Made by a program: the position numbers and the translations under genes. The notes beneath the pieces were generated by a model, which did no database searches, was not told the origin of the DNA, and saw only the letters and a list, made by a program, of their open reading frames with translations. DNA of 64,000 nt from Styela clava (Eukaryota; Chordata; Ascidiacea; Stolidobranchia; Styelidae): positions 23,593,313 through 23,657,312 of the forward strand of contig NC_135254.1 of NCBI RefSeq assembly GCF_964204865.1, given 5' to 3'. Shown piece after piece: positions 17,328 to 64,000 of this stretch (positions are counted from its first letter, which is position 1; each line of letters begins with the position of its first letter).

Positions 17328-17867
17328 GACCTGACCAAGTGCGACAAAAGAATGGAAGCACCGGCGAAAAAAAAACATTCGAGAACTACATGTAACGTAG
17401 CGGGGTTTTTAGGCGATAGCGTTCGACGGTGATATACTGTGTAGAAAAGACCGTCTACTTCCTCGCTAAACGACAGCTTGATTGACTTTTGAATACTGGC
17501 AAATACTCGGCTATTCTGTTGCCCCAGTCCACAGGTTCACACGATAAACAGTCGAGAAATATTCACGGTGCACTTTTGTATTCAACGCTAGGATACGACC
17601 TGACCAAGTGCGACAAAAGAATGGAAGCACCAGCGAAAAAAAACATTCGAGAACTACATGTAACGTAGCGGGGTTTTTAGGCGATAGCGTTCGACGGTGA
17701 TATACTGTGTAGAAAAGACCGTCTACTTCCTGGCTAAACGACAGCTTAATTGACTTTTGAATACTGGCAAATACTCGGCTATTCTGTTGCCCCAGTCCAC
17801 AGGTTCACACGATAAACAGTCGAGAAATATTCACGGTGCACTTTTGTATTCAACGCTAGGATACGAT
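17328..17867. repeat. Near-perfect 269-bp tandem duplication
   Basis: The sequence starting GACCTGACCAAGTGCGACAA at 17328 starts again at 17597. The two units differ by only a few changes (length of an A run, single substitutions such as CTCGC/CTGGC). High identity implies a very recent duplication or an assembly artefact. Confidence 0.85.
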
Positions 17868-18674: not shown

Positions 18675-19632
18675 ATGTCGTCTACTACAAAATCATGCGA
18701 TGTTCCTCCAAACCCCCCAAAGCGTAAAAGTCCCACCGACCGTCAAGTTGCCAGTTCTTCAACAATGGCTGACATAACCGATCAAAACATCTCCAACCTA
18801 GTCTCTGTACTCGAGAGCACTATTCTTAAGACCCTGCGACTGGAAATACCAGCATTAATTGAACAACATATCGAAAAATTAGCTATCAACACCTACTAGT
18901 AAATGCATCCAGGAATCTCTAGATGAGTCAATGAGGCAAGTTAAGACCCAGTTATCCTCGATCAGTGTTATCAAAGGAGAAGTTGGGGAGATAAAATCAA
19001 GCCAAGTCTTTATTGCAAAAAAATTCGATGAATTGAGTGCCAATTACAATGAACTCAATACAATTACAGCCAAAAACAACAAAAGAATTCGCCAACTGGA
19101 AAGAATTGTAGAAGATCTCGAAGAGGAGGTTGATATTCTTACAGAACGACAAAACGACCAAGAGCGAAGGTCAAGACTCAATAACTTAGAGTTCCATAAT
19201 ATACCATACACAGAAAAAGAAGATTGTGAAAATAAAATCATGAAAATAGCAGCTCGACTCAATATATCGCTACAACCTTTAGACATCTCAAATTGCCACC
19301 GAATGTCGAAAGCTAACACTAAAAAACCTTCACCAATTATTGTCCAATTTGTAAATAGGAAAACCAGGTATCAAATATTGAAAAACCGTCGCCATCTTAA
19401 ATCAGCAAACTTTCATGAAGATTTTCCACAATTCTCAAGATCCACCACAATTTTCGTTGTCGAAAACCTCAGCGACTACAGCAAGGACCTATTCTTCAAG
19501 GCGAAAGATCTGAAAAATAAGTGCGGATACAAATATCTATGGACGCACAATGTAAAGGTACTAATAAGAAAGAACACAATGACTGCTACCATACATATTG
19601 AGAGTGATGCTTACCTTTCATTAATCAAGTAG
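18675..19632 (+). pseudogene. LINE ORF1 (coiled-coil RNA-binding protein), frameshifted
   Basis: The first part (18675-18899) is basic and Ser/Pro-rich and ends at TAG. The reading continues in another frame from about 18890, so one single-base shift splits the protein. The second part has a leucine/glutamate coiled coil followed by RRSRLNNLEFHNIPY, the start of the RNA-binding region seen in many LINE ORF1 proteins. ORF1p normally coats the element RNA. The ATG at 18675 fits the basic start, but an upstream start at 18513 is also open. Confidence 0.7.
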
Positions 19633-19648
19633 GTCACTTAAACATAAT

Positions 19649-22600
19649 TTGTACACTTTACAATGTATTCTTCTAATTTATGTTTTCCTAAATATGGCTA
19701 CTTGTCTTATATCACATTGCAATTATCTTTTGTCATCTTTAATGGCCAATTCTAGTAACTCTCAATTAGTTTTTTCCAGTGATGTCACAATGTGCAGTAA
19801 TATAGAAGTTCATAATTTAAAGTCTATCCAATCTTTATCTGACTTAATAATTTTCCATGTAAATATTCGATCCCTACAAAAAAATATTGATGACTTGATA
19901 ACTCTTTTAAACAATTTTCCATCCCCTCCCCATATAGTAGCAATAAGCGAGTCAAAATTATCAAGTGACAATGTTTCTAATATTAATATGGATGGGTATA
20001 GTTTCATACACATGCCTTCTACCACCAAAGCCGGTGGTGCTGGTGCTTTTATCCGTGACGACCTTACCTATAATGAAATTTCAATTTATAATCTTAATTA
20101 CCCGAACTGTGAGAATGTATGGTTCAAAATCACTTTGGCCAGTACTGACAATAAATTAATCGTTGGTGTGATATATAGACACCCTCGAAATGATGTTCCT
20201 CATTTTACTGACATGTGGGAAACTTCTCTCGCTAAATTGGCAAACAAACAATTTTTGATAATTGGAGATTTTAACATCAACTTACTTTTAACACCTAGTA
20301 ACGCTCATATTGCAAATTATGCCAATATGCTCATTTCACACAATGCCACATCCCTAATCACTGACCCAACTAGAGTTAGCCGTACATCAGCAACTCTCAT
20401 TGATCATGTATATACAAATATCAGAAACCTAAAAATAGATTCCCACATAGTTCTGTCAGACATCACAGACCATTTTCCGATCATGTGCTGTCTGAGAGGC
20501 ATCAAACCATCATACACATACAATCGCAGAATGTCAAGGGACATGTCAACATTCTCAATCGATTGCTTTCGTAGTGATGCAGAGGTAATTTTTGCTAATC
20601 AATTCGCTGGAATTAATTTAAATATCCAAAATTTTAATAGTGTTTTTGACGACTTTATAAAGTCATTTGTTCACCTAATTGATCGCCATGCCCCACTTCG
20701 ACCACTTTCTTGACGTCAGAAAAGGTTACAATCAAAACCATGGTTAACCAAAGGGCTAAACGCTTGTATTCGACACAAAAATAAAATGTTTAAAACTCAC
20801 TTCTTGAAAGGTAACAGTTCCCAGAGCTCTTACTTTAAACAATATAGAAATATTTTGTCAAGAACCATAGATAAAGCTAAACAAATCTATTATCAAAATC
20901 TTATTGCTACAACCAAAGGTAATCCCAGGTCAACATGGCAAATAGTTGGCCAAATCACAAATGCAAAAAAGAAATTGAAGCATAAAATTGATGAAATTAA
21001 TACTGAAAACGGTTGTATAACTAGAGATGAACTTTTAATCGCAACAGAATTTAACAAATACTTCTCAACAATTGGGTCCAGCCTGGCTGATAAGTTTTCC
21101 AATGATACAGCTAACTTCGAACCTTTTCTCCGCAATCGTGTGAGCCAATCCATCTTTTTGAGCTCATCCACCGCGAATGAAATTTTAATCGAAATACAAA
21201 ATTCTTAACGACAGGAAGGCTGTAGGACCAGACAACATCCCAGCGCGCTTCATCAAATTAGTTGCGGATATAATTGCCCCTTGTCTCTCAAGATTCTTCA
21301 ATTCCTCGCTGATACTTGGAATCTTTCCTTCATCTCTCAAAACCGCCCGGGTTATTCCTCTTTTCAAATCTGGAAATAAAAAATTAATTTCAAATTATAG
21401 ACCAATATCAATCCTCTCAGCAATTGATAAAATGTTTGAGCGTTTGTTACATAAAAGACTCGCAAATTTTTTAACTAAATATGATGTAATAAATAAATAT
21501 CAATTCGGGTTTCAGAGCAATTATTCTACATCACATGCCATTTTAGATACAGTAGCATATATCTATGATAAATTGGAAAGAAAGGAGTATGTCAGTGCAA
21601 CTTTTCTAGATCTAAAGAAAGCTTTCGATACTGTGAATCGTGACATCCTGATTTCTAATTTGAGGCATTATGGTATACGGGGAATTGCAAGCAAACTCAT
21701 TTCTAGTTATTTGAATAATAGATCTCAATATGTTCAAGTGGGATCATACTGTTCTTCTCCCTTACCGGTGACGCACAGAGTTCCTCAAGGTAGCTGTTTG
21801 GGTCCTCTCCTTTTTCTCGTATATATTAACGACATAACTTATTGCTCTTCATTATTTTCCAAATTGTTCGCTGACGATACTAATCTCCTTGACAGCGACA
21901 AATCTTGTGCAGTTCTTCAGTTGAGAGTAAATACTGAAATTGCAAAAGTGTCAAGTTGGATGAAAGCCAATAAATTAACACTAAACATTGAAAAATCAAA
22001 ATCTATGTTAATATCTCCATACCAATGCAAATCGAAAAATGTTTTGGAAATCCAAATTGATAATAAAAAATTGGAAAATGTCCATTCCTTTAAATATCTT
22101 GGTATATACATTGATAGTAAAATGAAGTGGGATATTCACTTGTCCAACCTGGCCGTTAAATTATCCAAGTCTGTTGGAATGCTATACAAGCTTAGAAGAT
22201 ACACATCGCTTACCACCTTACGCATGATTTACTATTCCTTATTTCAAAGCCATATCCAGTATGGCATAATTGCTTGGGGTTCAGCTGATAAAACCTTATT
22301 ACACCGCATTGAAATTATTCAGAACCGAGCATTTCGTGCAATTTCTGCTGCCAGTTATATTTCACGACTTGGTCCTATTTATCATAGTCTTAAAATTATT
22401 AAATTAGCAGATATTTATGAAATTGAGGTATTGAAAATAATGCACCAACATCACTGCAAAAAACTCCCTTCTGCTTTCACCAACTATTTTTAAAAACAGA
22501 GCAACGTTCACTCTTATGAAACGCGTTCCTCTGTCGGGTGCTCATATTATGTAAATCGCTTCAGCACCAAACGAACTCAAAACTCGATCAAATTCGTTGG

Positions 22601-24763: not shown

Positions 24764-26480
24764 CAGTGATTCCCAAAGTGGGCGATATCGCCCCCCGGTG
24801 GGCGAAAACGATACAGAGGGGGCGAAAAAGTCGAAGGGGGCGATTTCACGAAACCTGTTTTTGTTTGGAGCATCGTGCACTTAATTCTGTACTTTGTGTG
24901 CATTCGCAGGCTTGAATCACGTGGGCGATTATCACACGCGAAAGGATTGCCGGACTCGTCTTCGCAGTAAGGTACGGTAGTTTGCGTATCGCTCGGCAAA
25001 ATACGGCCGGAGTAAAATAATCTGGCCTGGGACGATTCACTGAATGGACCTTTCCCCGACCTTTTACCGCGGAAAATTCTTTCAATACTTTACCATTTCA
25101 AAATTTTCGGTGCTTAGTTTAAGAGTGTTTCGCGAGTTGGTACCTGTAAAATGGGGTATTTGTTTCAAACTATCAGTCTAATTCATACCATTCAACAATC
25201 TGTTGATTCGCACTCTCGTACTTACGAAAATAAAAAGGGCATACTACTATAAAATATCACGGCAATTGGCGAATATAAATTTTCTGGTAGCCAGCTTCTA
25301 GGTAACGGTTATCCCATTGATTATTCTATGCTAATTACGCCATACAATAAGATAAGCTTGAATTTATTTTCGAAGTATTCGAAATTTCTCATTCGAAAAA
25401 AATATTTTCGAATGTATTCGAAATAGTGAATTATTCGGTAATGGCCATCCCTGGCTGATGGCAGGGGTTCAATTGCGCAGTAAATTTTCGAATATATTGC
25501 AATGCAAAAAGGAAATAAAATCCTTATTCTATTCGAGAGATTCATCAATGCTTAATTTTTCTAAGAATGTATCTTGTGCGAACAAATATTTCCGAAAATG
25601 AACATTACAAAGAACAAGCAAAGAACTAGGATTAGAACTAGGACTAGGATGCCTGATGCAGCAACAAGACCGTGTCACCTTAAATGTCATTGTAATAATT
25701 TTTTAATAAGACGACTGAGTTGAATTCCCAAATTGTCGCAGTTTTTGCGCACTGTTCCGTTTTTAACTTTAAAAAAATACAAGCGACACGCAAAAAACTA
25801 GCAACCCTAAATTTTGTCCCGCGAGCGACATAAAATTTGCCGACAACTGGGCCGTAGCCTGTAGTCGGTCACGACTTCTTCCACATCCGAGTCCATAAAT
25901 TCAAAAACAAATGGCTGATTAATTCTGTGGACTGGAGATCGTGGTAGGATGAGGAATCGGGAATGAATTTTACCGAAATATTTTGGTGCAGGTCATCAGG
26001 CTGTAGGAATGAATTAGATCGTAAGTATAGATTAGATGTACGAAAATCAATATTATAAGTTATGGAAAATTAACATTTTTTTCATTATTTTAATGTGAAA
26101 TGGGGTGAATTTAGGGAGTAAAATGCTATAAGACAAGAGTACACGGCGGTTTTTGAGGAGGTAGAACCCCGAATTCTTTCATTTCCGACCTATTATATGG
26201 TGAAAAAGGGGTTTTCAGCCGTGCTACTATTGCTATCAAAACAACGAAATCGCCTTTTTATCAGTAAACGGGGTAATTTTAGATATAATAAAAAACTCCC
26301 TGAAGAACACCAAGCTCATCCATCTCATTAAAATACACTATAAACTATGAATTGTCTTCTTTTTTGGTTTGTAATATATTCGTTTCTGACTTTATACATT
26401 TTTTTGTAGTGCAGGGGGGGCGATGAAGTTATATAAACTACTGTAGAGGGCCGATGATCAAAAAAGTTTGGGAACCACTG
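24764..26480. mobile_element. Non-autonomous hAT transposon, family 1, copy 1
   Basis: Ends: CAGTGATTCCCAAAGTGGGC at 24764 and TTGGGAACCACTG to 26480, flanked by a perfect 8-bp duplication GCCTAAGT (24756-24763, 26481-26488). It has a G/C-run subterminal zone (CGCCCCCC and GGGGGGCG blocks). It is the inverted counterpart of the copy at 42720-44798. The open frames inside, present in both copies, show no hAT transposase motif. Confidence 0.9.
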
Positions 26481-31928: not shown

Positions 31929-32925
31929 TCACCCCCTATAGGGAGGGTGTAGGAAAATCACTGGATATCACTATACTGTACATAAAATGGTTGTTGAATG
32001 GCCTGATTTGCGGATTATGACTCCAGCATTGACTGACAATAGTTTTGTCCCAAGTTAACCTGACGATGAACACCGGCAGTTGTCGACGCCCACGTGGTGT
32101 GATTTGATTCCTGCGAAAGTCTTTGTTTGAATTTTGAGAAAAATTAACATTGGTTTCATATTTTTAATAGTAAATGGGGGTAAAACCCCGAAATTATGGT
32201 AAACTCATAAGGGGTGTTGCTATATACCTTAATGTAATTTTTCGGCTTTACTTAAATCACTGTCAACCTAGGTCGTGTTAATAATGTCTTGGTTATATGT
32301 TAAGTTCTACCGTAAATATATACCACTAGAGAGAGAGAGTGAGATTTATTGCCACAAAAACAAAATCAACACTAATATAAACAATAATAGATAATAATAT
32401 AATGAAGAAAATATTTCATCAGTAATAAACAGCGATTGATTATTGTTTTGTGCGGGTCAGTGTGCAGGACCGATTAAGGTCATCTAGGCTCCCGACCCTT
32501 TTGTAAATGCTGTATATAAGGTTATCATGGCATAATATAGTACCATGGGTAAATGCAAATGGGATTAAATAAAATATATATAAGATAAAGAAATGAGTGA
32601 ATGAGTCGGCAATTTAAAGTTATTATTATTAAAGTTATCAAAGGGCAATTTAGGATTTTGAGAGGTCATGTACCGATGTAACCGATCATGTCCAATGAAA
32701 GAATTAAAACAGTCAAAGATTTAAAAAAAGCTTTTTTTTATTGGACACAGACCGAGATCAAAAATTGAAAGATAGGGACAAGAAAATAATAATATCATCA
32801 CAGATTCAGTAATGGAGTGCATGACGTAAAAGTATCATTTGACTCCTTTTGGCACCTTAATTAGTTCACATGAAGAAGCAGGGGAAAAATAATAACAATC
32901 GATGAATATTGTTTAATTGCTACCA

Positions 32926-33990
32926 GCATTCATAAGTATTTATACATACTTGAATAAGGATTCGAATATTTATGTATTATCCACAATTAAATATACAGCT
33001 CACTTGTTACACAATGAGTTTAACAATATAAAAAGGTTATTAGGTAAATTAATTTACGAAATGAAAGCATGGAAAAACACAGTGACAATCACTGAATACT
33101 GTATGGTGGCTACCAACATTCATAAAGATTTTTAAAAATATGAATTAGAAATGGAGTATCAATGTATGATCCACAATTAAATATGCTATTGATAATGCAG
33201 TTCATCACTTATTATATAATTAGTTTAACATGTAAATAGGTTAATAAATTAATTAATTTACAAAGAGGCTAACAACATTTACAAATATTCATACCAAGCG
33301 TACTTGAAAAAGAACTAGAATATTAATGTATGGCCCACAATTATATATGCAGTTCATTTGTTACAAAATGAATCTTAACAATATAAAAAGGTTATTAGGT
33401 AAATTAATTTACGGAATGAAAGCATGGATAAACACAGTGACAATCACTGAATACTGTATGGTGGCTACCAACATTCATAAAGATTTATAAAAATATGAAT
33501 TAGAAATGGAGTATCAATGTATGATTCACAATTAAATATGCTATTGATAATGCAGTTCATCACTTATTATATAATTAGTTTAACATGTAAATAGGTTAAT
33601 AAATTAATTTACAAAGAGGCTAACAACATTCACAAGTATTCATACCAAGGGTACTTGAAATAGAACTAGAATATTAATGTATGGCCCCCAATTATATATG
33701 CTGTTCATTTGTTACAAAATGAATTTCAACAATATAAAAAGGTTATTAGGTAAATTAATTTATGAAAGGAAAGCATGGAAAAAACACAGTGACAATCACT
33801 GAATACTGTATAGTGGCTACCAACATTCATAACGATTTATAAATACTTGAATTAGAAATGGAGTATCAATGTATGATCCACAATTAAATGTTCATTTCAT
33901 CACTTCTTATACAGTGATTTTTAACAATATGAAAAGGATATTAAATTAATTTACGAGATGGAAGCTTGGGAAACACACTGACAATCACCA
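32926..33990 (+). repeat. Satellite-like array, ~355-bp unit (about three units)
   Basis: The string GTTATTAGGTAAATTAATTT recurs near 33037, 33393 and 33743. GTGACAATCACTGAATACTG recurs near 33080, 33437 and 33791. Each unit appears to be a diverged dimer of about 178 bp, because half-units share TATGTATGATCCACAATTA-like and CATTCATAA-like strings. It lies wholly inside the 29771-34343 element. Confidence 0.8.
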
Positions 33991-34657: not shown

Positions 34658-35008
34658 TAGGATAGGATAGGATAGGATTTACATATTTATCCCGGGGGAG
34701 AGGAAAGCCGATAAGACGGCTTATTCATATGGCGAACCACGGTCTCTCGTCCGGTTACCATTCCAAGTCGGGTATGGGATTAGATTTACTGTATTGTTTG
34801 TTTTCGGAAGCATGGACTTGGTGGTGGAGGAAGCCGTAACCGACCAGCGGTTACGTGAACCACCCAACGACGGCGAGGAGTCCAGCAATCCTCTCGCACA
34901 TAACCATCCCTGCATGGGATTCGAACCTGCGAACCCACGCAGAGTAGTTAGAGGTGCGGTGGCGAGCGTATTCCTAACGCTTAGCCCGTTGAGCCACACC
35001 GCCGCGCC
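34658..35008 (-). mobile_element. tRNA-derived SINE, copy 2 (best preserved)
   Basis: On the minus strand it begins GGCGCGGCGGTGTGGCTCAA at 35008, with an A-box-like GTGTGGCTCAACGG just inside. A consensus B box GGTTCGAATCC occupies 34917-34927. The 3' end is a pentamer tail (ATCCT repeated four times, 34658-34678). This is the layout of a tRNA-headed SINE with a simple-repeat tail. Other copies: 1083-1477 and 55085-55356. Confidence 0.85.
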
Positions 35009-35888: not shown

Positions 35889-37590
35889 TCATTTTTCACC
35901 AATCATCAAAAGGCCCAGGAAACAAATTTGGTTTACACTTTGGATGCACTTGGACTGCAGAATTAGCTCATCGTTGAGGATGGGTAGTTTTTGTCTAGGT
36001 GCACTGAAAATCATGTACTTGGTCTTTTCCGCATTTACTCTTAGTCTGTTTGCAGTTAGCCAAGATTGAATGTTAGTAGGGTCAGCATTAGCTTTTTCAA
36101 TAAGGTCTGGTAAATATTTCCCTTGTAGGAAAGGGGTGGTGTTGTCAGCAAATAGGATAGCATCGGAGTTTTTGAGTGATTTAGGGAAGTCATCAATCAT
36201 AATTAAGAAATATATAGGCCCCATAAGCGACTCTTGAGGCCTCTAACACCTATGTGGTAGAGTTTGGAAAGCAAGATATGATGGTCAATGCAAAAAAGGC
36301 CAAGAAATAGTCCGAGAGTATAATGGCCTTTTTCAAATCTACCCAGTATTTTACTTTACCTGCGAAGTGGTATGTCCCTTGCGAAAACCAAATTGTTGCA
36401 GAAAAAACTATTTTGTTCTAAAAAGGTAACTAATCTATTGTACATTACTTTTTCTAAAGTTTTTGAAAAAGACGGCAGTAAGCTAGTCTGTCTATAGTTT
36501 TTGACATTTTTCATGTCTCCCCCTTTGTGAAGCGGTACAACTTTAGCGATTTTAAATTCATCAATAAATTGTCCCGATTGCAAAGAAAGATTAAAAACAT
36601 GAGCTAGAGAGAGCATGCAGTTCCACGGCATTGCTCTGATAACCTTACTAATAGAGATTCCATCAAGCCCACAGCCGGTTTTAGGTCTAAAAGCTCGAAT
36701 AATAGCTTGTATTTCTGTGGCTGTTACGGGTGATAAAAACATCGAAGAGTTACTTCATTCGTCCATGTATTTCATGAAGTTACCGTCATTATCATTAGTG
36801 AATTTATCAGACATTCGCTTTCCTATCGTAGAAAAATGTTCATTGAAAAGATCGGCTATCAATACAGGATCACACGTTTCCTTATTTCCCACAACAAATA
36901 CTTTTGACAGTTTAGATTTGCATTGACCTAGCAGGGTATTCATTGTTTGCCACGATTTTTTCAGATCATTTTCAGTTTTACTCAAGAGCGATCTGTAGTA
37001 AGAATGCTTTTTGGTCAATATCATTTTTTCATAAGTTTTCTTAATTTCCAAGTATTCCTAGAATATTGCGATTTATTGATGAGGACTTTTTGTAATGTTT
37101 CTGTTTTTCGTGTGAAGTTTTGATAATTCTCTATCAAACCACTTTTTGTTAGTTTTTTGATCAAAATTTGAGAAAAAACTGACATAACATGGCAAGAATA
37201 ATTTCTAAAGGCATCGCTGGGGTCTGACTCTTCATATACTACAGAAAAATCAATACATTCTAATGACGTCCTAAAATTAGTCATATTGGTCGGATTAAAT
37301 GATCTAGAAAATCCGTTTTCTTCGTTTTTAAGTGTTTTTTGTTCTATCGGCATGCACAGCATTACAGGTAGATGATCAGAGATTGCATCGGTTAGAATAG
37401 CGCTGACAGGTTTTCGATCGTATATGTTTGTCCATATATGATCGAGAATTGCCGCGCTGTTTTCACTTATTCTGGCCGGTTTGGTTACAGTGGGATAAAA
37501 GAATATTGGTTCATCAACTCAGTCAATTCGTTGACAAAACGGTGCGAGGTGTCCACTAGGTCGTAATTAAGATCACCCATTAGTTTACTT
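35889..37590 (-). pseudogene. Broken LINE ORF2 (endonuclease end and reverse transcriptase)
   Basis: Read right to left: the end of an endonuclease domain near 37580-37330 (GDLNYDL, ILDHIWTN, TDAISDHLPV), a linker, then reverse transcriptase blocks (FRPKTGCGLDGISISKV at about 36690, KVVPLHKGGDMKNVKNYR, and QESLMGPIYFL near 36230). A piece of the palm is deleted between about 36356 and 36240, and the active-site box reads FADN instead of FADD. The 5' half of the endonuclease and the 3' end are missing. It is a different LINE lineage from the one at 18-24 kb. Confidence 0.8.
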
Positions 37591-37809: not shown

Positions 37810-47260
<9,451 letters not shown>

Positions 47261-48348: not shown

Positions 48349-48615
48349 CTAATAACGCTTTTGGTTGACGCGGCATCGAGATTTCGTGGTAATTCTTCGG
48401 CAGTGTAAATTAGTTCAATTCGAGTTATATCGTTTGTATACTTAACCTCCTCACTTGTCGAGTCCACTAAAATAGCATGCGGCATAGACTCGTAGCCGAT
48501 AACGTTGTTTTCAAAAATCGGTTGGTTAATATTACACAGAACGTGCGTGAAACATCTTTGCAGCGTTGGATATCATAATTGCTGATTGTAATAGCACATC
48601 TCTACAGATAAGGTA

Positions 48616-49149
48616 ATGTCTACATTCAAATATTTTGGATATGCCAGTAACTTGGCAGATTACAAAGTAGGATTGGAATGTAAATCTTGTCGATTAGAAA
48701 GCATAGCGCGACTTGATGGCTTTACTTTGAGTTTTGGCGAGTATTGTCCGGATTGGTGTGGGGGTTCTGCCACATTAAGAATGGAGACAGGATCTGAGGT
48801 TTGGGGAGCAGTCTGGGTTATTGACAACTCGGAGATGGATATTTTGGATGAGCAAGAACATGTTACCAGTGGCCAATACAAAGCGGTAATCATCGAAGTT
48901 GTCGGCAAGGATGATCGAATTATACAATGTCGGGCATACGAACAGATAGACAAGCAGGGCGAACCAAGTAAACCGTCTCCGCAGTATTTAGCCGTGATTT
49001 TGGATGGAGCGAGAAAATGTGGATTGCCAAATGGATATATTGCTAAACTTGAAGCTGTTGAAACAAATGGTAACAGCGAAATAACGGAACTCATGGTTGC
49101 AATCAGCGAACGACGCAAAGCATTTGGCCTTCTCAGTCCATTATTTTAA
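48616..49149 (+). CDS. GGCT: Gamma-glutamylcyclotransferase, intronless
   Basis: A single open frame of 177 residues, close to the 188 of human GGCT. The substrate-binding loop is YFGYASNL at residues 6-13 (human AYGSNL), followed by SIARLDGFTLSF, WCGGSATL, EVWGAVWVID and LDEQEHVTSGQY. Glu81 in DEQE corresponds to the catalytic Glu98 of the human enzyme. SPQYLAVILDGARKCGLP closes the fold. The enzyme converts gamma-glutamyl amino acids to 5-oxoproline and the free amino acid in the cytosolic glutathione (gamma-glutamyl) cycle. Two things are odd. The glycine of the YGSN motif is Ala. The coding region has no intron although vertebrate GGCT has several. An AG after CTCTAC just upstream (48607) could be the acceptor of a 5' untranslated exon. 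No decay is seen, so a functional gene is likely. Confidence 0.93.
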   Translation: MSTFKYFGYASNLADYKVGLECKSCRLESIARLDGFTLSFGEYCPDWCGGSATLRMETGSEVWGAVWVIDNSEMDILDEQEHVTSGQYKAVIIEVVGKDDRIIQCRAYEQIDKQGEPSKPSPQYLAVILDGARKCGLPNGYIAKLEAVETNGNSEITELMVAISERRKAFGLLSPLF

Positions 49150-52726: not shown

Positions 52727-52741
52727 TTTATTTTGTTTATT
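52727..52741 (-). terminator. Polyadenylation signals of PHA depolymerase copy A
   Basis: Two AATAAA hexamers on the minus strand (52727-52732 and 52736-52741) lie 65-80 bases downstream of the copy A stop codon. Confidence 0.5.
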
Positions 52742-52805: not shown

Positions 52806-55800
52806 TTACGAAACTATTCTATCCAACATCCTCATGACTGCTTTGATCTGCTCGCCATTGGCTGTTGCTGTAAATGAAAATATAGCAGTGCTTGAACACT
52901 GGTACATAAGAAAGGACACAATATTGATTTAGCCTATTTCGCGAACACTGAAATGTTTCTTGAATATATTTAATGTATATATATAAGATACGAAATTGAA
53001 ACAAAAACTTACCATAATACTCGCTGGTGAATCCCCACCTGCGCAAAAAATACCATGAATTATTTTGTTGTGCGGGTATCAGGCGTGAAGAAACCCACAA
53101 ACTATCTGAGCCAATTTTTAAGTTTTAAAACACTCTACAGTCATAGTGCCACAAAAATGTCGTCTACAGAAAAATTGTGTTGTTATGGTGCAACGGTGGG
53201 CAAACCGCGACTCGCCGGAGTTTTATACAGCTCTTCTCGCTAGCAATAATTATATATTATCCAAATTTAACTAAGAGAAACTGTATCGTAACAGTTTTAA
53301 TTCATTAAGCGGTTGAAGAAGCGTTCAACAATGATTAAGAAAAATTATGTTTTAGTATGAAAAGCGTAGAGTGGAATTTAATTTAAATCAGTCAAACGAC
53401 AAATCTTACATCCCAGCGATCAAATGTTTGTTGCTGCGTTGGCGGTTTGTTGTAGCTTTTTTGCGGTTAGTCTCCGCACTGCATTGTCTACATATCACCA
53501 AGACTTACAAACTTCCAGATAAGATGGAAACACACCAGTCAACTACTTCTGATATGTCCTCGCAATATATACTTTACAATATTGTTATCATATTATTATT
53601 AGTTTGAAAAATTATGCGGCTCTTATACTAAAAAAAATTGCGTACCCCTGTTATAGTGCTTCGTTAAAATATTTTTTGGGGTCATTTCGTTGGTTGTATT
53701 GAAAATACAGGTAGATGATCGAAAAGGCAAATTTTGTAACTATAAATAAGTTGATCACTTTTTATATAAATGAAATTAAATAAAATTCTGCCACATTTTT
53801 TAAATGAAGTTTCAACTCATCTTAGCAGTTATTAATATGCTTCTAAAACCAATTTGCATAAACCAAATACAATAGCATACCAGTCCCAGCAACCCTGAGG
53901 ATTTGTAATAAGATTCACTGATGTTCTCGGATAGAGTATGATAATGTTATTCAGAGCTGCAACTTCGTTATAACCCGCATCGTTAGCAAATGCTTCGGCT
54001 ACGCTGTCGCTTGTCTTACATCCATGGAAAGCTACGTGCACGCGGCAACCTACAACATATTTAAGAGATCAAATTAGAGCGTTTTCAGATCATGTCATAT
54101 TGTATTTTTTGAACTTTTCGTTATTTTACTTTGTACTCCAAAAAGGAACTTCTGTTAGTTTTTTTGTAACTAGTATCATACGCTAAATATACTACTACTA
54201 CGTCCCCTCAAAACAGCATGGGCATTGATGTGACTTTCTGGGAGCGCCAGAGGGACATAGCTAATAAAAATATAATAGCCTTTATTTATAAACATAGTCT
54301 TTCCTGAGGCATATAGAATTTTTGTATGGTTAAATAGTTTTATAAGAAACATGATATATTCAAGAGAGACATGGCATATTGAGGGCGCTATAATATAAGA
54401 TGACCGCTCACTTGTGGTTCCACTACTGCAGGACGTTGGCACAAATACCAGCCCGGTCTCATCCATAACAATATCTTTCGGATTTGATGAATCCACAAAA
54501 TCAGCTTGACTAAATTCTAGCAACTGTCCCTTCGGCAAATCATTGCTCTCATAATCCGGCATCTATAAGTCAATAACTATACATATATATTAGCATATTA
54601 AAATTATATCCATAAACAATTAGGTAAATCCCTACTGCCCGGGTATCGACGAAGCCCCGCGGATTTTCTATCTTTGTTGACTTGCTCGATATCTTGTGGC
54701 ACATAGGTACATAAGGAGCTTAATATTGCAGAGTAAAATTATAACACTTTTAACAATTACGATCTAACATAATAACATTACGAACATTTTTAACTAATTT
54801 TTTTTTTCCGAATCATGATAACAAATTAATGGACGTGAAATGCGGTTTTATTATCTGTGTCGTTAATTTGCCTTACTCAAAGTCAACCTGGCAAAATATA
54901 ACTATTACCTGCAAGTTCCCGCCATAAATATGATTGAGAATATGATATGCCGCTGCAAATCCGCAATTATTTATATCATTGGTGTTTCTGAAGCCACAGA
55001 GTCCTCCTTTGTTCATTGTCGGCTTAACATAATTTATTGTGCAATAAGAAAATTATTTTGGTTGTCATTCTGTCATTCGGATATTGGCTCGATGGTGTGA
55101 CGCATCGTGCTAAGCGAAAAGAATACGCTGGTCACCGCACCGCCGTAGGGTGGTTCCGTAAGCCCTGATTGGTTGGGACTTCCTCCACCAATCCAGTCCA
55201 TGTATCTGGAAACAAATGACTGGATAACTAATCCCATACCATACCCGACATGGACTGGTAACCGGGCGAGAGGCCGTGGTTCACCATATATGATCAAGTC
55301 GTCTCATTAGATTTCCTTACCCATAGGGATAAATGTGTCAATCCCATCCTATCTCAAGAAGCATTGTACAGGCTGTAGAGCAGCAAAACGACAAATATGT
55401 GCGGCTTTTGAAAATATACTCAATTCGACAAAATACCCTACCTCTATTCATTTTAAAACAAAATGCAACAAAATAGTTTTATAAGACGTAAATTGTCATT
55501 TCTGTAGCTGATAAGTCAATTATTTTGTTGGAAAATCGGAAAACAAAAACACGAGTTTCAAACTGAATCCGACCGGTAGAGTAGGCTTGAATAGACATAA
55601 ATTGCATTAATTTCCGGTTTGTAAACAGTTGAATAAAATAGTATATACTCACAAATCCGTTCTGTGATGCAACATCGTATTCTGTTTTAATATTTGAAGG
55701 ATTCACATAACTGAGATAAAATTCTTCTGCTTTTTCAACCACCCCTCAAGAAAAATAAAAGCTTGTAAGGCAATATTCATGTACTAAGTTTACCACAAGT

Positions 55801-56697
55801 TGTTTTATTCCTAAATATGTGAATCGAGGGTCTCAAAAATGCGTCATGGAATGCAAGGTGGGGCAAAAGTAGACTAATAGTTATTAATCAATATAAATAT
55901 ATATATATATATTTAAATCCTATGATATTATACTAACAATTAAAAACTTGGAATGCTTTACATTTGTCAAACCATATTTTATTTGATTCGCGCTAACGCT
56001 CAGGTTAGACACTACTTGTGTGTATGATTGCCTACCTTTTAAAACTGTTGTGTCTTCTGTGCCGCTGTAAAGGTATACTTTGTCGTTATTTAAGTTGGAT
56101 AAATCTGGAACCGCACCACTTATGACGTAGTCCTGTGCATCAGATTTCAAAGTCGCCACATTTATACCCATCGGCATCGTCATGCAATAGGTTGTCGCCA
56201 ATGTTAGACTGTTTCTCGCACAATAATAAGGACCTAGAATATGAGAGTCATAGTTCCATTTCCAATCATCATTTTTGAGTAAAAAAGATCAAAAAGAAGT
56301 AAGCAGTAGACAGAATATATATAGTGAAAAATATATATATATGAAAAAAAAAAATGTTTGGTTATCAATGGTTAGAACGACTGACTACAGCCCCACTCAT
56401 CAAAGTAAACTCATTTTTTTGTTCAGTACTGAGATGGGTGTTTCGCAGTCAGCATATTTTTCAATTAGCGATGGGTTTTGTGAAGCTCTGTGTTAGATAT
56501 AAGAGACAAATTATATATAATATATATATGAAATTCGAACCACCACACGCAACGAAACAATTGAGCTCGTATACCTCCTGCTATTGCCCCGGCTCCCATT
56601 ATATTATCGGATTCAGCAACATGCATTTGAATTGCCATATATCCACCCGAAGACAATCCACTTACTGAAATCGCATTTTTATCCGCTTTGTATGATC
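52806..56697 (-). CDS. PHA depolymerase-like, copy A: catalytic His replaced, no signal exon seen
   Basis: Eight minus-strand exons join in frame into about 311 residues: 56697-56575, 56233-56036, 55744-55653, 55022-54909, 54562-54412, 54049-53881, 53038-53013 (26 nt) and 52867-52806. They code for the type-2 short-chain-length PHA depolymerase fold: lipase box SVSGLSSGGYMA, the Asp loop YLYSGTEDTTV, INNCGF...LNHIYGG, the oxyanion block HVAFHGCK, then GCWDWWGFTSEYY and a final helix ending in RMLDRIVS. Exon lengths match copy B almost exactly. The catalytic His of copy B (codon 59380-59382) is Asn here (codon 55659-55661), so hydrolysis by the normal triad is doubtful. No ATG with a signal peptide lies in the 322 bp up to copy B; the first exon opens in phase 1. 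The open frames argue against simple decay. Options: a missing first exon, splicing from copy B exons, or a pseudoenzyme or pseudogene. A SINE sits in the third intron. Confidence 0.82.
55085..55356 (+). mobile_element. SINE copy 3, internally deleted
   Basis: Plus-strand copy of the tRNA-derived SINE: head GGCTCGATGGTGTGACGC, then GTGCTAAGCG and GAATACGCTGGTCACCGCAC; the B-box part is missing. The body (GGACTTCCTCCACCAATCCA, ATGGACTGGTAACCGGGCG) and the tail CATCCTATC follow. It lies in the intron between exons 3 and 4 of PHA depolymerase copy A. Confidence 0.7.
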
Positions 56698-56845
56698 CTT
56701 AAAATATAGCAATGTTTGGTTATATCACGTGAATGGTTGGGCCCCGTTTGACGTTACTTAGTGAATTCAGCTCCCTACTAGATAAAAGCCTGAATCAGTA
56801 AAACGTCCGCATTTAACAAAATAGCCCACAAAAAATCGTGTAAAA

Positions 56846-56851
56846 TTTATT
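56846..56851 (-). terminator. Polyadenylation signal candidate for copy B
   Basis: AATAAA on the minus strand, about 170 bases past the copy B stop and about 150 bases before the first copy A exon. If used, it ends the B transcript before A. Confidence 0.4.
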
Positions 56852-57018
56852 TGAGTTTGATGTCGTTCAAAAAAAAGTCTGTTTAAATGTATCACGCCTG
56901 TTCATTCGGAGGTCAGAACTTAAAATTAGAACTGAAATTACAGTGTATCCTGCTGATGTATAGTTTTGGTTTGACTAACCATTTTTTTTTGTTTCTTTGG
57001 TATGTGTGGTAAACAAAA

Positions 57019-60000
57019 TTAAACCATTTTACCCAAAACTCCATCCTCAATAGAAGACCCTGGCTTTGTTGTTGTTTTCGGTTCAGTAACTAAAAATAAA
57101 TGAAAAAATATGTTTAATAATTATAATCAACAAGAACATCTAAACCAACCTTCTAAATCTAGCCCATATTTACAAACCAATATTTGAAACTAGCTTTTTT
57201 AGTTATCATACTGAAACGTTCGCTATGATAAAATAAGCCGGAGACTAACTTTTGATAGTTGATGCGTCTGTTGGTACTACGTCAGGAGTTGTTGTAATCA
57301 TTGTAGGTGCTGACGATGACGTCATAGCTGTTGAACCCGATGTCAGTCTTTTTACCATGTTCATTATTGCTACTACTTGTTTGCCATTGTGGTACGCTGC
57401 AAAATTATGAAGTTGAAAAAAAGGTATAAAAACCAGGGATGGGGTTTTACTACTACACTTAGGTATATATATATAAATATATAATAGGTTGAACTTTGAA
57501 TTTTAAACGGCATTTCAACAAAACTGAATTCAATTTATTCAAAATACTGAGACAATTCATCATTGTTTTTAAACATAGTTTAGTCAGAGCTTCGAGGTAT
57601 TACTAACAGTTGGAACTATAAAATCGCATCGCATGATCCATCTAGCAACCTACCGTAGTTTGAGTCGGTGTATCCCCAACTGCAATAAAAAAAAACACAT
57701 GACAAAAAGATATGAATAGCTCATGTTTACATAATATATTACGTGCAGATATGCTACCTTTTTAAATGATTGATCCTATATGTAACGGAATTATCAGATC
57801 GAAAAAGCTCATTAAATTACTATTTCGGGTATTTTTTAAAGAATTATGGAAAAATAATTTAGATTTGACTAGATTTAAAATTGAAACATCACGAGTTTTA
57901 ATTAAACATTATTGGATACGTTTCAACTATCTTTGATATTGTACGATATGGCACGTTTCAGGCGACAATCAAATTCAGTAAATCTGGAATGATGCAAGAC
58001 CAAAACAGTGAAATTGGAATTGCAGACCGTATAATTATTCAGTTATACTTGAAGAAAATTATTCTTAAACGCTCTAAACTCTAATTTAACAATATGTATC
58101 AATATACATGCGTGATAAAACATAAGAAAAATCGATAGGTTTGTGTTTTAACTTACAAGTCCCAACACCCATTGGGGTTGGAGATGGGAATGACTGACGC
58201 TTGAGGATATATAACAATAATATTATTCAATGCCGAAACCTCATTATAACCAGTCTGCATAACATAAGAATCTCCGATGAAGCTATCCCCTTGTTTACAT
58301 CCATGTATAGAAACATGTAGACGGCATGCTGGAAAATTCAGAACGTTCAAAATAACCTATATATATATATATATCACCCATTAGCCTACATCACTCAACA
58401 ACTCAAGCTTTTAATACAAAGGAAGTTAGGTTCCATTTAAATGACGGTGACAATTTTGGTATTACATACTATTGAACTGTTAAGGTCGAATTTTCAGTAT
58501 TCTCATAGTTATAGGCAATAATAAACAAACATGAGATTTCTAGACACCTAGACAACGTGCTGATATAGTCGATACCATATTGCCTTGGTATCGAAGAACG
58601 CAGTTTCAATCTTGTTACAGCTGTACAGTTGGAAAATTTGCCTTGCATTATAATTAGATAACAAAATTACAATACATTCTGTTGCTCCAGCGCAGGAATC
58701 TGGCACAAAAATATATCCTTTGGAATCCATTCCAATCGATGACGGATTTAGAGTATCTATGAATTCAGATTGGTCAAATGCCAAAACCGTGCCTCGCGGA
58801 GCAGGAGCTGTCAACGAATAACTGGGAACCTAAATAATAAAGTCTATTTGTAATACTTCATTTCAAATAGTTGTTTATTGGCTACTGAAATGAGCTCTTG
58901 TGAACATTACTCAATACTACGTTCCTAGATTGGCTGATAGAGTAATCTAATCATTTCTCGAGTTATATGTCTGCTGATCAATTACCATAACCCTGTTTTG
59001 CTATCTTGTCCTTCTTGATGTTGCCCACGTGTGTGAGTGTTGGAAGACAAAAAGAATCATTGGCTACATTTAGTTCAAACTGATTATGAGGTCGGAGAAT
59101 TTGTGATTGGACCCCGATTTGTCTTATTGTAACGTATTTCTATGATTCAGGTACCTCGAGGTTTCCGCCGTATATGTGATTAAGAAGATGATAAGCAGAA
59201 TCGTAATCACAGTCATTTATGTAAGTTGGTGTGTATATTCTGTTACACGCTCCACCATTGTCCATTGTGACCTGGGATTTGGAAAAAAGAATTTAGAATC
59301 GAAGAAAGTTTTAATACTACTGGAATACTGCAATCGAATACAAATATTGTCACATAAAAGACTATTATCTCACAAATCCATGCTCTGCAACAATGTCATA
59401 CTGTGTCAAAATGTTGGCGGGATTAACAAACTCTTCGTAGAACTCCTGAGCTTTCGTCATCACACCTGAGAATAAAATGTTCTATTATGTTATGTTCTTT
59501 CAAAAGCTGTCTTTTATGACTGGAAACTTTACCCACCTGGCTTGACGATCGAATCCTCTTTTCCACTAAATAGATAGAGTTTTGAATTGTACAGATGATC
59601 TAGCGAGCTTATTCGACCCAAGTCAGCTTGTGCTTTTGCGTTTTCTATCAAACTTTTTACTTGTATCATATAAGGTGATGACATGCATGCTGTCAAAGCA
59701 GTTGATAGAGAATCCTGTGCGCAGTTGTATGGACCTGTAATACGGGGGAAAGGGTTTATATAATGACACAGATTGTAAAATCTATTTCATCACAATGTAC
59801 TCTATACGTAATACGCTAGGTAATGTTTTGTAAATTAAACGAAACTAGAAACGGCAGATCTATTCGAAGGTTTGACAAAATCTCCATTCACTTGGTATAA
59901 TGGGTTTCTTGTATGTGTAGTTACAATTAAAACAAGATACGATCGCATGCACTACGGAAATGGTTGAGTGTGCTGAAAATGACGTCAGCATTTGGCCTAT

Positions 60001-60977
60001 CGATTTTCTGAACCGATAAAGCTATATGATGTGCGTTACCCTTACCTCCAGCTACAACTCCAGCACCCATGAAAGTATCAGATTCAATGATATGCATTTG
60101 TACTGCCATAAATCCTCCCGACGATAATCCACTAACAGAAATTGCAGTAGTATCAATGTTATAGGATCCTCATCGAATAAAAAAAAAATTGTTCAACAAA
60201 TAGCCAATTCAGAATACTTAATTCATATATTGCATTTCATCACTTTTCATATTGCTAAATCGAGTCGACTCCACTACTAACACATCTGATTTCCCATTAT
60301 TCATTACACAAATTGAAAATTTTCTGCTTCATCTTGGTTTCTAATGTTAAATATTTACTTATCACAATTAAAGAGTTTGCTGGCAGAAAATTGCCCTTCA
60401 AAATTTTTGAAAATTAAGCCATTATGGAATATTCTAACCCTGTGGTTTCGAACCTTTTTTGTGGAACGAAACACCAATGAAACATTCCCGAGGCTCGAAT
60501 CACCATACAGTTCATTTAATTGTCTTTTATTGATTGTCGAAGTATATAAAACATAAATGTATAAATAGAGGAATCCTCCTAATACTAACAGAATGAACTT
60601 ATAATATTAGTAAATTCAATACACATTTAATTATATAAATTTAAGCAATAAACATAATATAGTAATATAGACTCTGGACTGGACCCCTGTACTGTACTGG
60701 CGGAACGCTGGGATGCAGCGGAACCTTGGTTGAAAACCACTTTTCTAGACGTGTGCGTTTTAAGAACTCAAAACTATTGTTATCAAATTGCAATTTAATA
60801 ATTAAACATGACAATGTCAGTCAGCCTTTGAATCTGCTTCAATTTTGTGCCCTAAACTTAGTTAGGCCTACATCAAAACTTACCAAGCTTTCCTTCGTTT
60901 GAAGCAGCGAAACTTGAATAACAGTAGAGACAAAATATGCAATATACAAGTTGCCATATTCGTATGGAATTCATCAT
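57019..60977 (-). CDS. Secreted type-2 short-chain-length PHA depolymerase, copy B
   Basis: Ten minus-strand exons give 397 residues: 60977-60884, 60168-60046, 59734-59537, 59465-59374, 59271-59155, 58829-58676, 58328-58157, 57679-57654 (26 nt), 57396-57250 and 57089-57019. Exon 1 encodes a signal peptide (MMNSIRIWQLVYCIFCLYCY, then SSFAAS). The lipase box SGLSSGG puts the nucleophile at Ser47. Asp133 lies in FSGKEDSIV, His167 in AEHGF and the oxyanion Cys270 in SIHGCK. The order Ser-Asp-His-oxyanion is the circularly permuted type-2 arrangement of the fungal Penicillium funiculosum enzyme; the Asp-to-His spacing of 34 equals that enzyme's, as I recall it. GCWDFWGYTDSNY follows. Such enzymes cleave polyhydroxybutyrate to hydroxybutyrate oligomers outside the cell. 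The last two exons add a Thr/Ser/Pro-rich tail, probably O-glycosylated, ending in SIEDGVLGKMV, with no visible polymer-binding domain. The exon 6 donor (GTATTG) is the weakest junction. Real substrate is unproven. Confidence 0.9.
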
Positions 60978-62760
60978 TCGGTGTTTGCAAGATACCACAC
61001 TAATTTCGTTAAAAAGAAAATTTGCAAAATAGATGTACGTTATTTCGCAAGTGTGTTTAGGCTGTTCAATTCTGATCATCCAGGTAGGACGTACGGTATA
61101 TCAAAAATTTACTCTTGAATAATGTGTAATCAGACATATTACAATATTACCCTGGTTTACTCTTCACAATAAACAGGAAAATTTGCGTGAAACACGAATA
61201 ACGGTAAAACTTCATTGATCCCAAGAATTCTGTACGCTACCGGATGTTCGCCATAGCAACCTCAACAATTAAAAAAAAGGCAACAACCGACAAAGTAACT
61301 GACAACAACTGAAAATTAATCCTTGGATACCATGGCGTATCCGTGAGACTTTTTCTTTGAGTTACACATGTTTGAATGGCAGATGATGACGCAGATAGTC
61401 TAAAAACTCGATCCAAATTTAGAATTTCAGAGACCGTCAATAAACAAAACAATGGGGATTTCCCATTTGCTGATGTTTATTATGGTATATACACTATATA
61501 CTATAGTATATACCAGGAGTGACCAACCGTTCGACCAAAATCTTCGAAATAGCTCGCGACTGATCGGTAATAAGGTCATACAATAAAATGGCTGCTGAAT
61601 ATGCAGATAATTGTAAGTATCCATATTATCTAATCAGAGAAAAACTTCGATACTTCGATACTTATTTTACAATTTCCTCGAAGTGCAATCGTCGCTCGCT
61701 TGGAATAAAAAAATTGGACATTCTGAATTATGATGCCACTGCTACTGTTGAGAATACAATTTATCACTCTATACAAAACAATAAAATTTATTTCGGCAGT
61801 CTGAAAACACGAAAGGAACAAAACACATAACAGAAATGCCCGGAAAACGAGCAAGACTTATGAATAAAGTTTATAACGCACAATGTACGTGATCGTTTAC
61901 CAAAAGTAACACAACTACACGTTTCATGTGAAAAAAGTGAGTCACACATTCAGGTTGAAAAAAAATGATAATAAAGTTGATAGCGTGTCGGACACAAACA
62001 CGTTTCGGCCAAATAAACGCAGTTGGGCAATAATTACATGTGATAAAAGAGAATGCAAACTAAACACAATAAAACAAATAAACTCGAGATTCTAGAACAC
62101 GCATATATACAGATACCAAAATTGATTGATTAAGGGCAGTCCGATTGTTGCACATAAAAACTAACAATAAAAGTTTCCATGGATTTCGGATGAATTAAAG
62201 TCATTCTTTACATTAAATAGTATGTTATGTTGCTTTGCTACTGTTACAGGGTTCTTCATTGTTCTGATCATTTGTTTGTATTTTGTAGTACTTTCACGCC
62301 GATCCGATGGTTCAACATTCTTATTTCTGTCCAGGATTGCAACAACTCTTTTCGGCTCCACCCGGTTATCAGTACAGTTCTGAAATCAGATTCACAGAGA
62401 GAATTATTTTTGTCCGGGTTTCCAAGTTTTAGTCCAAAAGATCTCTTATTCTAGTTTTCCATCGCCCAATATCGGTACCACGTCCGCACCCGACGGCGGT
62501 CTGATCAGAAATTCTATTCTTTGAGTGAGACAATAACTTTTGCGTACTGCAGAAGTCATTGCAGGATCATTTCTACGTCAAGACACACGGTATTCACGGC
62601 TAAACTTTCATTTGTTAGATATTAAATAGAATCCATTTGGCTTGCCGAGACTCAAATATTGTAGGCCTATGGATATATCGTATTTTACACATGTCCCACA
62701 CACATTTTTGGGTATGCTATTAAATTCACTCAACTTCAGACGCGACGTTGCAATGGTACA
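60978..62760. other. Intergenic DNA between PHA depolymerase copies B and C
   Basis: Contains the presumptive promoter of copy B next to 60977. Open frames of 60-80 residues on both strands (for example 61588-61830 plus) carry no motif I recognise. Confidence 0.4.
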
Positions 62761-62766
62761 TTTAAT
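62761..62766 (-). terminator. Polyadenylation signal candidate (ATTAAA) for copy C
   Basis: ATTAAA, the common variant signal, lies on the minus strand 35-40 bases downstream of the copy C stop codon. Confidence 0.35.
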
Positions 62767-62800
62767 AGGAAATGAAAATATGAAAAAGTGCGGTAAAACA

Positions 62801-64000
62801 TTAAACTATTTTACCCAAAACTCCATCTTCAATAGAAGATTCTGGCTTTGTTGTTGTCTTCGGTTCAACAGCTGAAAATAAATGAAAAAATCACGTTTTA
62901 ATAATCAACAAGAACATCGAAACCAACCTTCTAGCTAGCCTATATTTACAAACCAATATTTGAAACTTGTTTTTTTAGTTACGTTATGCTGTGATAAAAT
63001 ACGCTTAAGACTAACTTTTTATAGATGATGCTTCTGTTGGTACTACCGTAGGAGATGTTGTAATAACTGTAGGTGCGGGCGATGATGTCATAGTCTTCGA
63101 ATCAGATGTCAGTCTTTTAACCATGTTCATTATTGCTACTACTTGTTTGCCATTGTGGTACGCTACGAAATTATAGTGTGGAAAAAAAACTTGTTATAAA
63201 TATCAGGGCTGAAGTTTGACTATTAAACTATTAAAAAGTATATATAAAATAAGTTGAACTTTGAATTTTAAACAGCATTTCAACAAAACGGAAATCAATT
63301 TAATCAACATATTGAAACAAAGCATATCTGTTTTTAAACATAGATTAGAGATTATAATTTTTCCTAACAGTTAGAACTATAAAATCGCATCGCTTGATTC
63401 AATCTAGCAACCTACCGTAGTTTGAGTCGGTGTATCCCCAACTGCAATCGAAAAAACAAAACAAATGACAATAGATATGAATAGTACATGTTTACCTATA
63501 CTACGTGCAAATCTGCTACATTTTTAAACGATTGATCACGTATGCGGCAGAAATATCAGAAACATCTTATTAATTGCTATTTCGTGTACTTTTTAAAGAA
63601 TTATGGAAAATAAATTAGGATATGTCTACATTGAAAACTGAAACATCACGAGTTTTAATTTAACAAGATCGGATACGTTTCAACTATCTTTGATACTGTT
63701 CGATATTGCACGTTTCATGGACAATTAAATTCAGTAAATCTGGAATGATGCAAGACCAAAAAAGTGGAAAATTTGAATTGCATATCGTAGAATTATTCAA
63801 TTATACTTGAAAAAAATTATTTATTCCAAACGTTTGTTGAACTCTTATTTAACAATATGCATACGTGATAAAACATAAACATGTTGATAGGATTGTGTTC
63901 CAACTTACAAGTCCCAACATCCATCGGGGTTGGAGATGGGAATCACTGACGCTTGAGGATATATGACAATAATATTATTCAATGCCGCAACCTCATTATA
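62801..64000 (-). CDS. Secreted type-2 PHA depolymerase, copy C (3' part; runs off the window)
   Basis: Four 3' exons are visible on the minus strand: from beyond 64000 to 63909, 63441-63416 (26 nt), 63162-63016 and 62871-62801. They match copy B exons 7-10 in length and phase; the 26-nt exon looks identical. The coding parts give ALNNIIVIYPQASVIPISNP, GCWDFWGYTDSNY, then a Thr/Ser/Pro-rich tail ending SIEDGVLGKIV. The introns also align with copy B, so the duplication is recent. The first splice donor here is GTAAGT as in B. The lipase box, Asp and His exons lie to the right of the window, so activity cannot be judged. Confidence 0.88.

Follow-up and report, generated by a model that had tools for sequence, protein, structure and literature searches.

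The window analysed here, a stretch of 64,000 nucleotides on a 24.9 Mb contig (C5:23,593,313-23,657,312), carries on its minus strand a locus that is likely native to a tunicate and likely encodes secreted type-2 polyhydroxyalkanoate (PHA) depolymerases. The locus most likely holds two genes: gene BA, in which copies B and A of the depolymerase domain form domain 1 (D1) and domain 2 (D2) of a single chain, and copy C, which has a D1 of its own. The two D1 copies are probably active and D2 is probably dead, a pseudoenzyme that would bind the polymer. Coordinates are window positions, on the minus strand for depolymerase exons, and those beyond 64000 are extended window coordinates.

Gene BA was modelled with 18 exons, giving an open frame of 704 residues that begins with the start codon at 60977 and closes with a stop codon whose last base is 52806 (Table 1). 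In the spliced model the 17 introns are GT-AG throughout and consistent in phase, and the product runs from a signal peptide through D1 (copy B) and a Ser/Thr-rich linker (Ser or Thr at 19 of 48 residues) to D2 (copy A). The signal peptide that a first-pass annotation had proposed for copy B is likely, as judged by hydropathy only, from a hydrophobic core followed by SSFAA; GA rather than AG precedes the ATG of this first exon. No in-frame ATG was found upstream of the nucleophile serine in the first exon of D2 (56697-56575), where the open frame begins GSYKADK, and the linker donor of B (exon 10) fits that exon in phase 1, the phase in which the signal exon of B also joins D1. Because of the missing ATG and the fitting donor, copies B and A were read as most likely one gene, with A as its domain 2. 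An interspersed repeat common to 55127-55353, 34666-34886 and 1082-1449 (about 71-76% identity) has one copy inside the gene BA intron between exons 13 and 14.

Copy C was modelled with ten exons and 9 introns, from 66598 to 62815 on the minus strand, and codes for a signal peptide, D1 and the linker (392 residues; protein 89% identical to B). Its 5' part lies outside the window, up to 66598 (C5:23,659,910), and includes its own signal-peptide exon. The end of the tandem duplication was placed 27-29 bases beyond the linker exon because of the extent of the B-C match (Table 1); the B unit was followed only as far as 61600, where the compared stretch ends, and it may reach further. The ratio of nonsynonymous to synonymous substitution between B and C was 0.38 overall and 0.29 in the catalytic domain, which argues that D1 is under purifying selection. 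Candidate 3' ends of copy C are read-through of the donor to a stop (GKIV, stop), a possible terminal exon near 62381 and a splice to B exon 2. Between copy C and gene B, a 74-codon open frame (62161-62385, minus strand) follows an acceptor of good appearance; it may be a terminal exon of C, read in a different frame, or an element that has nothing to do with C. The minus-strand exons, conserved phases and three tandem domain copies described in the first-pass annotation were recovered, with GT-AG sites; the window end truncates the third copy. Its three tandem genes survive as three copies, more likely arranged as the two-domain gene BA (phase-1 join, 704 residues) plus copy C, and its figure of about nine introns holds for copy C but not for the B-A model, with 17.

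Family and type were assigned by scoring each domain alone. Against NF050059, the NCBIfam model of type-2 extracellular short-chain PHA depolymerases (cut-off 280 bits), copy C scored 358.5 bits, D1 of B 360.9 and D2 335.4. The best solved relative of the joined chain in the PDB (phmmer) was the polyhydroxybutyrate (PHB) depolymerase 2d80 (E 7e-53). The scores of the domains of C, B and A with the type-1 models lay under the cut-offs (95.5, 94.6 and 86.9 vs 150 bits for NF050058; 71.5, 74.0 and 58.8 vs 107.85 for TIGR01840), and a type-1 identity was ruled out on these per-domain scores. The whole two-domain chain exceeds both cut-offs (173 vs 150 and 122.2 vs 107.85), which is put down to the summing of two domains. 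The type-2 class is defined by a lipase box N-terminal to the oxyanion block, and all type-2 members in the PHA depolymerase database have a hydrophobic residue before the nucleophile Ser, unlike most lipases and esterases (PMC2666664). In B the nucleophile Ser at residue 47 precedes HGC at 268-270, and the hydrophobic position next to the nucleophile is occupied by L in B and D2 and by F in C. The type-2 family and permuted order named in the first-pass annotation were thus upheld.

The catalytic residues of B are the triad S47, D133 and H167 and the oxyanion C270. For the Penicillium funiculosum enzyme PMC5445757 gives Ser39, Asp121 and His155, with the oxyanion hole formed by the main-chain amides of Ser40 and Cys250, and the fungal S, D, H and C align with S47, D133, H167 and C270 of B. 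The Ser-Asp-His triad is present in D1 of B and of C, and the fungus and all 94 bacterial rows likewise have S, D and H in these columns. The bacterial rows comprised the best 80 of at least 547 stretches confirmed in a scan of genome contigs, chosen by motifs that exclude the His column and both Gln columns discussed below, and 14 from phylum sampling; L098 and L113, repeats of L043 and L087, were dropped, and 8 further full-length matches and the short matches L114-L120 were left out.

The first-pass annotation had read all copies as enzymes, which probably does not hold for D2, where Asn stands in place of the catalytic His. The 94 bacterial relatives share 26 invariant columns; none of these is changed in D1 of B, D1 of C or the fungal enzyme, and three are changed in D2 (catalytic His to Asn, Gln of HGC-x-Q to Thr and Gln of YPQ to Arg). 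The Asn codon is AAC where B has CAT, and since these codons differ at two bases a single miscalled base cannot account for the change. Ser, Asp, HGC and GCWD are retained, and the end branch of D2 is longer than that of D1 (0.89 vs about 0.37 in a careful tree, 0.60 vs about 0.37 in a quick one). D2 is probably catalytically dead, a pseudoenzyme, and is unlikely to hydrolyse anything; it would be a relative of the type-2 depolymerases by descent and not an active member. D1 and D2 are 52% identical, and the introns within them share order and phases and delimit exons of near-equal length. These matching introns argue that both descend from one intron-bearing domain and that D2 was duplicated after the introns were present.

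Several points weigh against the reading of the locus as PHA depolymerases with one dead domain. The splicing of B to A and the 3' end of copy C are models. Peptidase_S9, a general hydrolase relative, was the sole Pfam family above its cut-off (22.7 vs 22.6, by 0.1 bit). PF10503 (Esterase_PHB) fell below its gathering score on the 704-residue chain (18.3 vs 23 bits), which the permuted domain order may explain, and genome-wide it matched nothing, the depolymerase locus itself included. A known substrate-binding domain was not found in the 704 residues, and each of the five Pfam families listed for them at E up to 1 is a hydrolase family. At the 48 columns conserved at 95% or more the contrast is weaker, with 4 departures in B, 4 in C, 6 in D2 and 3 in the fungus. 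The loss of activity expected from Asn in place of His is drawn from general knowledge, and it is we who infer the role of D2 as a binder. No sequence feature distinguishes PHB from other short-chain polyesters or esters as the substrate.

On the last of these points, the enzymes may act on another ester (food lipids, or an ester of the tunic or egg coat), with PHB a side substrate at best; we hold this to be a minority possibility, though one to be taken seriously. Families of alpha/beta-hydrolases readily change substrate, and the departures of each D1 at 4 of the 48 columns include W to F at 317, beside GCWD. D1 nevertheless keeps all 26 invariant columns and has a hydrophobic residue before the nucleophile, as type-2 members do (PMC2666664). 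Another esterase family was ruled out, since no stronger match was obtained in Pfam, NCBIfam or the PDB, Peptidase_S9 by 0.1 bit apart; the first-pass annotation had asked for this check. It is improbable that D2 keeps some hydrolysis through its changed catalytic residue. The retained Ser, Asp, HGC and GCWD and the score of 335.4 bits to NF050059 would fit such activity, but the fungus and every bacterial row have His in that column, D2 lacks the two invariant Gln residues as well, and its end branch is the longer in both trees.

The arrangement of the genes admits two other models. Splicing of the C linker exon to B exon 2, with the B signal exon skipped, would give a three-domain protein C-B-A; the junction is in phase, and in this model the frame is open through to the final stop (1065 residues). 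The GA in place of AG before B exon 1 would lead to skipping of that exon as modelled. B nevertheless has its own signal exon, preceded by about 600 bases that belong to the duplication, and the interval between C and B contains the possible C terminal exon (after tttcag near 62381) and, at 61792, an AATAAA, so that we consider the three-domain protein rather unlikely. Still less probable are three separate genes, of which A would have its own promoter and first exon and give a one-domain protein. The lack of an ATG before the nucleophile in the first D2 exon speaks against this, as do the short distance of 335 bases from the B linker exon to D2 (not searched for a small first exon) and the exactly fitting phase-1 donor of that linker exon. 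Separate genes would agree with the signal-peptide exons of C and B, with an AATAAA (56851) that separates the B linker from D2, and with the stops met after four codons when the linker exon is read through (GKMV in B, GKIV in C), so that B and C may also exist as one-domain forms.

The arrangement preferred here, gene BA plus copy C, was compared with known systems. The Penicillium funiculosum PHB depolymerase (2d80, and its entry twin 2d81, different at the nucleophile) resembles animal D1 in motif order and in the Ser, Asp, His and oxyanion Cys columns, with a full-domain match at 37% identity; it differs in that the solved chain has 318 residues and one domain, and in an insertion before NPNGCWD that is missing from the animal domains. 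The bacterial type-2 dPHAscl depolymerases (NF050059) have the type-2 catalytic domain in common with the animal genes, at 38-48% identity to D1 in the best-scoring loci. Type-1 dPHAscl depolymerases (NF050058, TIGR01840) gave weak two-stretch matches to each animal domain, as expected of a permuted relative, single domains being under the cut-offs. More than 80 residues lie beyond the catalytic domain in 40 of the 80 bacterial type-2 relatives (Fn3-like by eye in three of four tails inspected), and a second D1 match in the same open frame was found in none of the 80; in gene BA the catalytic domain is followed instead by the Ser/Thr-rich linker and by D2, a second, altered domain of the catalytic kind. 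D2 thus stands at the position that a linker and a substrate-binding domain take up in bacterial enzymes (PMC2666664, PMC5445757). A paper cited in PMC5445757 concerns, by its title, a mutant depolymerase and the nonhydrolytic fragmentation of PHB crystals, and in view of that title a binding or loosening role for D2 is conceivable.

D1 of BA and copy C, with their complete catalytic residues, probably hydrolyse PHB or related short-chain polyesters through the mechanism common to serine hydrolases. His and Asp would activate the Ser nucleophile, and the main-chain amides beside Ser and at Cys would hold the oxyanion. D2 was probably kept for its polymer-binding face, so as to help D1 grip the insoluble polymer or loosen it. 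In a filter feeder, granules set free from ingested PHB-storing bacteria could be digested in this way, and digestion of bacterial polyester is a reasonable proposal on the sequence. As a tentative suggestion, more doubtful than not, the animal lineage may have acquired a PHA-binding module through duplication of the depolymerase domain within the gene and inactivation of the copy, in place of the bacterial substrate-binding domain. The pairing of a probably active with a probably dead domain looks new. Among the literature matches listed, as judged from titles and abstract openings, none reported a PHA depolymerase encoded by an animal; a preprint is said to describe such enzymes in a gutless marine worm and other animals. 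Provided that D1 is active, a tunicate could break down bacterial bioplastic without gut microbes, which would be relevant to the use of bacterial carbon by filter feeders and to the fate of PHA plastics at sea. The D1/D2 pair, with matching introns in one chain and a full triad in one domain but not in the other, offers a direct test of the change from a catalytic to a polymer-binding domain.

Contamination was ruled out by the 24.9 Mb contig, the 17 introns and the animal-type neighbour genes, in agreement with the native origin claimed in the first-pass annotation, and the depolymerase locus is probably native to an animal, probably a tunicate. Open frames of animal type in the window (plus strand) encode a Rab11-FIP-type domain (7106-7465), an alpha-tubulin acetyltransferase (Mec-17; 39543-40031) and an AIG2-like gamma-glutamylcyclotransferase (48595-49149). 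Elsewhere in the genome a GH6 match (E 1.5e-6; C9 16,179,895-16,180,164) follows cellulose synthase-like open frames from about 16,176,672 (L095; glycosyltransferase motifs recognised by eye). Fusion of cellulose synthase to GH6 is a hallmark of tunicates, and on these frames and the GH6 match the locus was placed in a probable tunicate. A search for mitochondrial COX1, made to identify the taxon, gave no match. Six-frame, exon-by-exon searches of the genome (376.6 Mb, 379 contigs), by which diverged copies could be missed, revealed no further copies elsewhere: NF050059 gave 11 matches and D1 gave 19, all on C5 within the locus. Several genome matches cross stop codons, read as aligned stretches that overrun exon ends; the spliced models have no stop before the final one.

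The highest bacterial identity to D1 among the matches listed was 48%. In the phylum sampling, matches at E up to 0.001 were found in 37 of 398 genomes from the phylum of the gammaproteobacterium L043 and in 8 of 396 from that of the actinomycete L087; at E < 1e-39 there were 23 and 1, respectively, centre genomes included, all at 46% identity or less. The three animal domains formed one group in the careful tree (84 rows; support 100/97), joining a long-branch actinomycete (99/86), and in the quick tree (98 rows; support 99, by the Shimodaira-Hasegawa-like approximate likelihood ratio test only), where the group lay within an unresolved fork; because of that fork no tree neighbour was trusted. 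One fungal sequence was the only non-animal eukaryote in the trees. Forcing a clade of animal and fungal sequences cost 24.6 log-likelihood units and was not rejected by the approximately unbiased test (p-AU 0.219). The ancient transfer from bacteria suggested in the first-pass annotation is on these trees no more than possible.

Table 1. Features of the depolymerase locus (window positions).
Feature	Position	Strand	Remarks
Copy C, 3' part	62815..64000	-	Exons 64000-63909 (cut by window end), 63441-63416, 63162-63016, 62871-62815
B unit of tandem duplication	57004..61600	-	Matches C unit 62788-67214 at 79.8% over 4705 columns
Gene BA exon 1, start codon and likely signal peptide	60884..60977	-	Donor GTAAGT, phase 1; hydrophobic core; similar exon in copy C
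Gene BA, bulk of D1 (catalytic)	57654..60168	-	Exons 60168-60046, 59734-59537, 59465-59374, 59271-59155, 58829-58676, 58328-58157, 57679-57654; NF050059 360.9 bits
Gene BA exon 9, end of D1 and beginning of Ser/Thr-rich linker	57250..57396	-	
Gene BA exon 10, remaining linker, phase-1 donor to D2	57033..57089	-	Read-through past donor gives GKMV, stop
Gene BA D2 (probably dead; Asn replaces catalytic His)	52806..56697	-	Exons 56697-56575, 56233-56036, 55744-55653, 55022-54909, 54562-54412, 54049-53881, 53038-53013, 52867-52806 (stop codon included)
Two AATAAA poly(A)-type signals soon past gene BA stop codon	52727..52741	-	At 52741 and 52732

Outside the locus, a search of the whole window with Rfam gave no match. 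A non-LTR (long terminal repeat) retroelement occupies 18883-22493 on the plus strand, with FP-type, endonuclease and reverse-transcriptase domains (PF25298, PF03372 and PF00078), and open frames at 35889-37518 (minus strand) resemble, by eye, fragments of another reverse-transcriptase element, 36356-36754 having no Pfam match. Tandem direct repeats were found as units of about 350 bases (32876-33988) and as a doublet of about 270 bases (17328-17866; 98.5% identical). Nested inverted matches lie about 16-19 kb apart, pairing 25654-26480 with 42720-43502 (82.6%) and 24764-25204 with 44346-44798 (87.2%).

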